Positions 8,901 to 11,900 of a stretch of 64,000 nucleotides of DNA are shown here, piece by piece; within the stretch, counting starts at the first letter, position 1, and every line of letters starts with the position of its first letter. The stretch is taken from positions 421,001 through 485,000 of the forward strand of contig JAMWET010005070.1 in NCBI GenBank assembly GCA_024036415.1, given 5' to 3'. The position numbers and the translations under genes are program-made. Under the pieces are notes generated by a model. The model did not search any database and was not told the DNA's origin. It was given only the letters and a program-made list of their open reading frames with translations. The DNA comes from Prochilodus magdalenae (Eukaryota; Chordata; Actinopteri; Characiformes; Prochilodontidae).

Positions 8901-11900
8901 GATGGAACATAGCTCCACTGAAAGCTGAGCGATGTTTGATTTCAGAGCCCAGAACCGTTTGGCAGTGTTGCGTTTCTGACCTCCCGTGGACCATTAGCGA
9001 ACATGGGAGGCACTTAGCAAGCCACAGGCTCGTCTCGGCGCTAGCCTGCACACCGTTTGGAATTTAATTGAGCACAGATGGTAGATAATCTATTTTCCTT
9101 ACTACATGCCATCTCTCTAATGGTGCCAGGGCTGTGCTATGCAAATGAGTGCCTTTTTTTCTCGCTTTATTTTTCAAGACGGCCATTGCAGACAGTAAAT
9201 GCATCTAAACACCCCCCTCACCACACACACACTACACCTCCAGCCCCAACAAAGGGTACGAGAGAATGGGCTTCCTCTCTTTGTTCAAAGTTTATGGGAT
9301 TGAAATGAATTGTCTTACATAGTCTACACAGACATAGAGGGCTTTTGTCTAGAATTAGCTTTTGTCTATCATCTTCAGGGTAGCCGTCAATCTGCTGAAA
9401 CTCTAGGGAGGTATCAATGCAATGAAAGCTTCCTTTAACACATTAACACACACACAGACTCACCCAGTTCAATAATTTGAATGGCCAGCCATTGACAGTT
9501 GAATAACTACTAAATGTTTTGTATAACAACAGCAGGCTTGTCTGTCTTTCTGTCTGCCTAGCACTGTGACTAAAGATTCCTCTTTGGCCAGCCTCTGGCT
9601 TCAGCCTGCTCTTCTTTTCTCTCTGTCTCTTCTCTCCTGCCTGCATGTTGGCCTGGAACTCTTCTCTTGCCTTAGCTGCCATTATCGTGACCCAGCTCAC
9701 CACGCCGTACATACGCATCGCGCCAGCCGCAGGCGACAACCAGCTAACAGGTCAGATCCCTCACTGCCCGGCATCTTTAACACTCTATGTGTATGCTTCT
9801 AAACTCCGCCTCTCTGTATGTGTGCGTGTGTGTGTATGTATGTGCGCGCATGTGTGTGTGCGTGCGTGTGTGTGTGTGTTTATGTGCTGTTTGATTTTGT
9901 GTAATCTTGTAACTTGTGCAGAAAAAATACAAAACTATTTACAGTAATTTATAAAAGTTTAAACCTCAACTACAACAGAAAACACCCTCAAAGGGAAATT
10001 ACACCTGTTTTTAAAAACCCTCTGCATAATCTGAACACTAAACACAGTCTTATAAAAGGCGTTAAAGTGATGAGAGACATTTAAAGAGACAGAGCTGTTT
10101 AATAACCAGACAAGTTTAAGGCCTCTAAAAGATTAACTACAGGAAATTCCTACATGAAACTGTTAGGAATGTGCTGCCTGAGACATTGTTTTAGATGATA
10201 GTTTTGAGATCTTATTTTTTTATTCATTTACTTTGGAGAGCTGTATGTTATGTAACTTATTTTTATTTGGACAATAAACAGGGTGTCCAAACTTTTGCAT
10301 ACAACTGTATCTGGGCAGGAAGTGTGATTGGAAACACTTTACATTAAGTCAAGTCAAGTCAACTAACTTAAAGTACAATGCATTAACAATAATTACAGTC
10401 CTTAACTAATCTTAGTAAACACGTTCCTTTAACAACTACATATAACAACTACACAACTATAACAGCTGTTACATGTTTACTTAACATTAGTTAAACACTG
10501 TTAATGATTACTTCACGTTAACTACTGTATTACTTCACGTTAGTTAGTCAACACTTAATGTAAAGTGCTATTTTGTGTTGTTGCATTTAAATACTAGAGT
10601 AAATTGAAATAAACTATTAAGAAGTTGAAAGTAATAATAAGTGGTAATAATAGCATTTAATGTGCATGTGGAGTAATAATCATCTGATTATCTAATCCTG
10701 GGTTATTAGAGAGTGCTGTTGGCTACCGTTATAAAATCATGTTAGACATAAATTACTAGTGATGCTGAGCTTTGTGAAGTCAGAACACTCTGTAAGAGAC
10801 TAGCTCAAGAAGAGATATGAAAACAGTCAAACTGACACACTGTCAGACATGTATTAATATTGTATTTCTTAGTATTTAGAATAGTATTAGTTTTATTCCA
10901 TGTAGATACACATACTGCCTATACAGTCTTACACAGTTGCACAGTACTGTATAAAAATGCATTCTGATATTTCTTGTGTGTTAGATGTCTCCCTGCATGC
11001 TGTACAGTGATGATGCTAATATAGATTATAGTGTTTGCAATTTGTTTACTGCATGCAATTGATTCTTACTTATTATTGATGACCAAATGGTGTAATACTG
11101 TGAAAGCTCTTACCATCCAACACAGCACCTCAGTTTTTGCCATTCTGTTTATTCCATATTCAGCTAATGCAGAAGGTCAGATTTTATTGGATTAGCCTTG
11201 CTGTTCTGTTCTGCAAACTTAATACCATTTTGTGCCTAAAAGAGAGCCATGGACTCGGCTCATTTTTATTCAGGGTTGCAATAGAGTTTGTTGGAGAAGT
11301 GGAAAGAGGAAATCAATACAGCCCCACAAGGCCATGTGAATCACAAAACCTTGTCACTTGGCATGCACGACAAACTATTGTGTTCAACCTGCTGTCAGAA
11401 CATTACATTTAAATATTTACCAGCCACGCTGGCTGAGTGAGGGATGGAAACTTTCTGTGTGGTGTTTGTGGAAAGAACCCCAGTGACTCACTTGTCCAAG
11501 AACTTCAAAGTTTCAGTCTATAAGACAGCTTACTTTTTGTTTTGCTCCTCAACTCCACAAACTAATTTCGGTAACACTTTACTGTATGTCAGTGTTCATA
11601 AGCTACAAGACATCTGAGGGAGCCGTTCTCACAACAGACAAAAACAAAATCTAAACATATGCGCTTGTTATTTTTCATAAAGATAGCTTTGCCAGGTGTC
11701 TGTGTCAAGTTGACAAAATATTTATGTTATGTGACACTTTATGTTTTCTGACATTAGGTTGTGTCATGAGGTGGAATGTGACAGACGTTACAGCTGAGTG
11801 TATATGGATCACTCTGCTGAATCGGTTCAGTATTTAAAACCCATTTCAGACTTTTAACTGACCTAAGGCTAATGTCCTTTAGCTTAATTATGTTTATTTT

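Follow-up and report, generated by a model that had tools for sequence, protein, structure and literature searches.

A conserved optional exon of the extracellular PTPRM stalk, listed from sharks to mammals

In a 64,000-nucleotide stretch of Prochilodus magdalenae DNA (hereafter the window), we found that the 75 nt at 9676-9750 are almost certainly a real optional exon of PTPRM. In the protein the cassette falls in the extracellular stalk, after the final ectodomain module and ahead of the membrane helix. Comparison of protein models indicates that it is an ancient exon, presumably already carried by the last common ancestor of living jawed vertebrates. Two stalk forms of PTPRM would have existed since before sharks and bony fish split, and the near-invariant motif of the long form may be a specific processing or docking site; we regard this combined reading as possible, though still short of probable.

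The + strand of the window holds part of ptprm. A tblastn search with Salminus PTPRM (P0009) as the query gave a match spanning the fourth fibronectin domain (FN4), the stalk, the membrane helix, the juxtamembrane stretch and the phosphatase region, from the FN4 exon at 2688-2961 to the last mapped exon in the window at 63057-63233. The human chain 2v5y also matches the window, over FN4 and the stalk. The N-terminal MAM and Ig domains are present in the Salminus relative (P0009), and their exons lie outside the window. The 633 joined window residues had their best matches, among the 301 listed PTPRM proteins described below, in Salminus (627 identical), Astyanax (625) and Hoplias (624). The features on which the analysis rests are given here with their sources.

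2688..2961, + strand: exon with most of FN4 (end taken from the translation; GTGAGT follows)
2716..2727, + strand: RPRR inside FN4, which we take to be a furin-like site (translation, DNA)
7730..7766, + strand: linker exon of 37 nt upstream of the cassette, encoding the FN4 end, 12 residues (tblastn map, splice matrix)
9642..9647, + strand: TGCATG, starting 34 nt upstream of the cassette exon, which we take as a possible RBFOX site and as a lead only (motif count, DNA)
9656..9675, + strand: cassette acceptor with a pyrimidine-rich tract, gaactcttctcttgccttag (DNA, splice matrix)
9676..9750, + strand: optional stalk exon of 75 nt, phase 1 to 1, 25 residues (DNA; cassette in 182 of the 301 listed PTPRM proteins)
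9751..9756, + strand: cassette donor GTCAGA, with C at +3, weak (DNA, splice matrix)
15287..15422, + strand: downstream exon with the remaining stalk (20 residues) and the transmembrane helix (tblastn map, splice matrix)

The cassette exon has canonical borders (AG at 9674-9675, 75 nt at 9676-9750, GT at 9751-9752), a length that is a multiple of three and equal phase on both sides; the reading frame on the FN4 side and on the membrane side is intact both with and without it. It is 61% G+C and contains 8 CpG (observed/expected 1.25), compared with 40% and 0.30 in the surrounding intron. At least 8 CpG were counted in 139 of 63,925 stretches of 75 nt, which form four clusters, the cassette being one of them. 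Two further CpG-dense patches, at 19587-19705 and 29857-29997, fall outside any mapped PTPRM exon and are possibly regulatory elements.

We scored splice sites with a hand-entered matrix, using the cassette's own scores as thresholds and considering open, in-phase candidates of 30-240 nt. At those thresholds, this hand-entered matrix returned the cassette as the sole open in-phase candidate in its intron, and five candidates on the + strand and two on the - strand in the whole window. On the same hand-entered matrix, the cassette acceptor is middling at 2.0: the linker exon reaches 12.5, the transmembrane exon 1.0, and the remaining mapped exons range from 0.5 to 11.2. The cassette donor scores 3.0, towards the low end of the 2.4 to 7.0 reached by the best sites of the other exons with the FN4 donor excluded. 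An ordinary acceptor and a weak donor suit an optional exon without proving one. TGCATG occurs once in the upstream 300 nt (0.22 expected), with pyrimidine tracts upstream and TG repeats downstream, and no QKI or ESRP motif was found within 300 nt on either side of the exon; the splicing-factor motifs around the cassette are too weak for a claim. Rfam returned no structured RNA in the window.

From the window sequence alone the evidence is suggestive, making the cassette a good candidate and not a certain one; it rises above chance because it is conserved across species, and a chance open reading frame is ruled out on that ground. The preliminary description of this DNA had proposed the exon, and its coordinates, length and phase proved exact by the DNA borders and the in-frame joins. 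It had also placed the insert in the extracellular stalk, and the FN4 end and the membrane helix do flank the cassette. Its "strong acceptor", however, was an overstatement, given the middling score on the hand-entered matrix.

We then compiled PTPRM proteins from three protein searches (E up to 0.01), taking the best 120 of 1,122, of 1,010 and of 939 matches, which together comprise 301 distinct PTPRM proteins. The cassette is present, in the same frame and position, in 182 of the 301 (86 species), and the flanking exons are joined exactly (ATK to G..T.KP) in 119 (48 species), counts in which divergent cassettes and cassette-free species are under-represented, the carriers having been sought with cassette-bearing queries and the best 120 hits of each. 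Every listed protein is a carrier or a clean skip, with none left over. The fish-flank search with the cassette gave 120 carriers among the best 120 of 1,122; the human-flank search with the cassette gave 62 further carriers among the best 120 of 1,010; and the search without it gave, among the best 120 of 939, 119 fish proteins lacking the cassette and one carrier, P0001. This last protein, a partial model from Sinocyclocheilus grahami, runs through the stalk and the membrane segment twice in succession, with only the first copy holding the cassette, probably because of a gene-model or assembly error.

To judge by their names, the carriers are predictions from gene models, which can take over exons from one another by homology. 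Among those listed are mammals (gibbon, ground squirrel, guinea pig, hamster, rat and the marsupial Macrotis), birds, reptiles and amphibians (ratites and tinamous, turtles, lizards, a snake, frogs, a newt and a caecilian), cartilaginous fish (the sharks Hemiscyllium and Cetorhinus and the rays Hypanus and Mobula), and gar, bowfin and bichir. An exact copy of the window's 25 residues occurs in 13 of the 301 listed proteins, the four cartilaginous fish and gar included. Several PTPRM-like proteins carry other names: "nucleoside-diphosphate kinase" in Sarotherodon (P0299 and P0014 are among the mislabelled), and "kappa" in several UniRef entries.

Both forms are listed in 20 species, and in 13 of these, all fish, the gene models place them on one contig, a shared contig being presumed from equal printed size. 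All 98 long/short pairs on these 13 contigs match over the 60 residues before and the 40 residues after the insert; on 10 of the 13 (not those of Triplophysa, Sander and Enoplosus) a pair of complete proteins is identical but for 25 residues. The skip form has been expressed, because the human ectodomain crystal chain 2v5y joins ATK to GAATPKP, which is the skip junction. A constitutive exon in fish is ruled out by the 119 clean skips among the listed proteins together with both forms on 13 contigs. In Prochilodus magdalenae itself, optional use is presumed from these relatives.

These results bear out, in other fish, the earlier proposal of an optional exon, as gene models occur with and without the cassette, and the frame, whose conservation in other fish had been named as a check, is conserved in the listed fish proteins. 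The same proposal had wavered between a new isoform and an ancestral cassette kept in fish. Ancestry held up; confinement to fish did not, and a fish-only cassette is ruled out by carriers among sharks, amphibians, reptiles, birds and mammals. Nor is the isoform new to databases: many RefSeq, UniRef and GenBank PTPRM models already contain it (gibbon isoform X6 and Anguilla Ma isoform X6 among them), with the same 25-residue insert at the same junction and no structural difference, and the window is another case.

In a tree of 36 proteins, two teleost clades appear with support of 99/95 and 94/90, the latter under the starred level. They are read as duplicates because Conger, Anguilla and Sinocyclocheilus sit in both. 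Each clade includes cassette carriers, so that loss throughout one teleost duplicate is ruled out; the cassette is absent, through skipping or loss, from Monopterus, Hippocampus and the first clade's eel rows (P0250, P0251). The evidence consists of protein models and the human PDB chain is without the cassette, so one might suspect a decoy or rarely used exon spread among gene models by homology. We consider this highly improbable: the frame has survived the cartilaginous/bony split with 96% identity and persists in the two teleost duplicate clades, and several deposits that are not numbered isoform models include the cassette, e.g. Synaphobranchus, Umbra, Amia and Engystomops.

We assessed the strength of conservation among the listed carriers with one protein per species. 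The 86 species have 13 distinct cassettes, with 18 of 25 positions invariant and a mean identity to the consensus of 0.958. The variable positions exchange I/L, V/L, I/V and I/L, or A to S or P (3 species) and L to Q (1 species), besides a free polar position 22. Over the same set, the 12-residue linker takes 6 distinct forms, the rest of the stalk 24 (84 species matched) and 80 FN4 residues 72. In an alignment of 68 proteins (4 cartilaginous vs 63 bony rows), for which carriers were picked with the cassette in the query, the mean cartilaginous vs bony identity was highest in the linker (0.978), the cassette (0.956) and the membrane segment (0.932); the constitutive stalk reached 0.788, the third fibronectin domain 0.693 and FN4 0.644. 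An optional stretch of 25 stalk residues is conserved to about the same degree as the membrane segment, whereas the adjoining FN4 has changed at roughly one position in three between cartilaginous and bony vertebrates. Such strict conservation implies a specific job, one that is dispensable to the crystallised human form.

Alternatively, the constraint might act on the RNA, the exon holding splicing enhancers or overlapping another regulatory element and the peptide being incidental: the exon is short and very strongly conserved, its donor is weak, and TGCATG lies upstream and TG repeats downstream. This appears very unlikely, as most substitutions, and the changes at most of the variable positions, are amino-acid conservative (I/L, I/V), which points to selection at the protein level.

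Inclusion makes the stalk more than twice as long. Between ATK and KIAG, all 119 listed skip forms have 20 residues, and 180 of 182 listed inclusion forms have 44 or 45, the two exceptions being a rat model (81 residues) and P0162, whose membrane segment starts differently and was unmatched. The rat model, P0176 (XP_017451804), has 37 extra residues directly behind the cassette, ahead of the remaining stalk. AlphaFold2, run on the 742-residue carrier P0018 with a 68-row alignment, gave a model usable in coarse outline only (mean pLDDT 63.1, pTM 0.35). In this low-confidence model the last FN4 strand spans 660-671, the cassette 672-696 and the helix 714-741, with pLDDT below 50 at 675-713; the Pfam FN4 model ends at residue 673. 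Searches of the PDB with the cassette (E up to 10) and of Pfam with the cassette plus stalk (E up to 0.1) gave no match. The cassette peptide is thus predicted, at low confidence, to be unstructured between FN4 and the membrane helix, and a folded extra domain finds no support in the modelled disorder or in the Pfam and PDB searches.

We propose that the cassette is an ancient optional element with a mechanism, in which stalk splicing controls membrane-proximal cleavage and the conserved motif is the target; we advance this tentatively, at somewhat less than an even chance. The stalk is presumably the region that sheddases cut, and a long flexible stalk would alter the presentation of the membrane-proximal segment to sheddases (ADAM10-type, then gamma-secretase), and may also alter O-glycosylation at the cassette Thr residues. 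Splicing would in this way govern how readily this homophilic adhesion phosphatase is released from the cell by cleavage. The near-invariant sequence suggests that a specific motif (a cleavage, glycosylation or docking site) is kept, and not length alone. Heavy O-glycosylation is not obvious, because the cassette holds four Thr only.

Two other readings address the peptide. The near-invariant 21-residue segment may be a binding motif that docks a same-membrane partner or its own copy, so that inclusion switches PTPRM associations and stalk length and shedding are side effects. We find this somewhat unlikely. Its constraint equals that of the membrane segment and far exceeds that of FN4, and the branched hydrophobic residues in the first half resemble an interaction strand more than a spacer; AlphaFold2, however, shows no structure in the cassette, the PDB and Pfam searches above returned no match, and we know of no partner for the cassette peptide. 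Since length effects need no such conservation (96% identity), a docking motif is nevertheless a close second to processing control. The cassette might, on the other hand, be a spacer that sets the rigid ectodomain rod further from the membrane, or tilts it, and so tunes the gap of homophilic contacts, which we judge unlikely. Inclusion does lengthen the segment modelled as unstructured by 25 residues, and the PTPRM ectodomain has been described as a rigid rod setting a specific intercellular distance (PMC10815196), but a spacer needs length and flexibility, and 18 of 25 invariant residues are not required for it.

Precedents for control of processing by a stalk exon come from two adhesion proteins. 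CADM1 becomes sheddable through an 11-residue stalk exon, with an argument that the length of the stalk is one determinant (PMC5385562). This exon 9, like the PTPRM cassette, is short, in frame, optional and placed after the final ectodomain module, ahead of the membrane; it differs in length (33 bp vs 75 nt), in belonging to an unrelated family and in having its shedding switch measured, whereas the PTPRM exon is known from gene models. Exon 13 of ALCAM, a homophilic adhesion protein, is likewise optional and membrane-proximal and alters proteolysis; in contrast, it is loss of the exon that goes with ten-fold more shedding, by MMP14 (PMC5816644). Precedent does not give the direction of shedding, because a longer stalk sheds less in ALCAM and more in CADM1. 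The sister receptor PTPRK is processed by furin, ADAM10 and gamma-secretase, according to PMC6440744, where the title of a cited work links processing by ADAM10 and gamma-secretase to beta-catenin signalling.

The solved structures represent the short form only, as no PDB chain matches the cassette, and presumably so does most cell work; if the near-invariant motif is indeed a processing or docking site, half of PTPRM regulation may have been overlooked. Isoforms that differ by the cassette exon alone make a clean experiment. Among relatives, Besco et al. 2004 reportedly describe five alternative exons in mouse R2B genes, one between FN4 and the membrane, and these may include the PTPRM cassette. 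PTPRT (RPTPrho) is said, in work by Besco of 2001 and 2004, to have an optional exon 14 whose insert lies between FN4 and the membrane; it is like the PTPRM cassette in position but appears to be different and shorter. Among the listed matches of our three protein searches, none was named as PTPRT. Our literature search, which covered titles and abstract starts (longer lists in part) and did not extend to Besco 2004, found no description of the exon or its function.

PTPRM is named among QKI-, ESRP- and quiescence-dependent splicing targets, with no exon given in the portions available (PMC6429586, PMC3827902, PMC6203201). Mentions of "exon 14" with PTPRM or PTPRU concern, in the accessible text, a SNP assay and a guide RNA instead (PMC5386118, PMC7320164). 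A survey of mouse phosphatase transcripts lists tethered and catalytic Ptprm forms in the part available (PMC1431701). The receptors of the R2B group, which are homophilic, contribute to junctions based on cadherins, and mice lacking PTPRM show a mild defect of arterial dilation (PMC9900141).

The window also contains optional exons of the same gene on the cytoplasmic side of the membrane, and a tandem repeat.

17088-17117: optional exon of 30 nt, 10 residues, just inside the membrane (SYTYY in 128 of the 301 listed proteins)
27147-27571: intronic tandem repeat with a 74-bp unit, about 5.8 copies
38094-38120: optional juxtamembrane exon DPFVPTAIL, 27 nt (in 137 of the 301 listed proteins; the VPIN residues are absent from 87 of the 137)
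39148-39159: probable 12-nt microexon TGCCAATTAATG, preceded by AG and followed by GTAAGT, located behind the DPF exon and ahead of the next exon on the map (in-frame join)

The PTPRM juxtamembrane cassettes, including DPFVPTAIL, resemble the stalk cassette in being optional, in frame and in the window, but they lie inside the cell and not in the stalk. The microexon came from the second of two search patterns, with 0 mismatches (0.09 matches expected with one mismatch allowed; a match in 7 of 100 shuffles), and AILVPIN, as from the joined microexon, occurs in 50 of the 301 listed PTPRM proteins.
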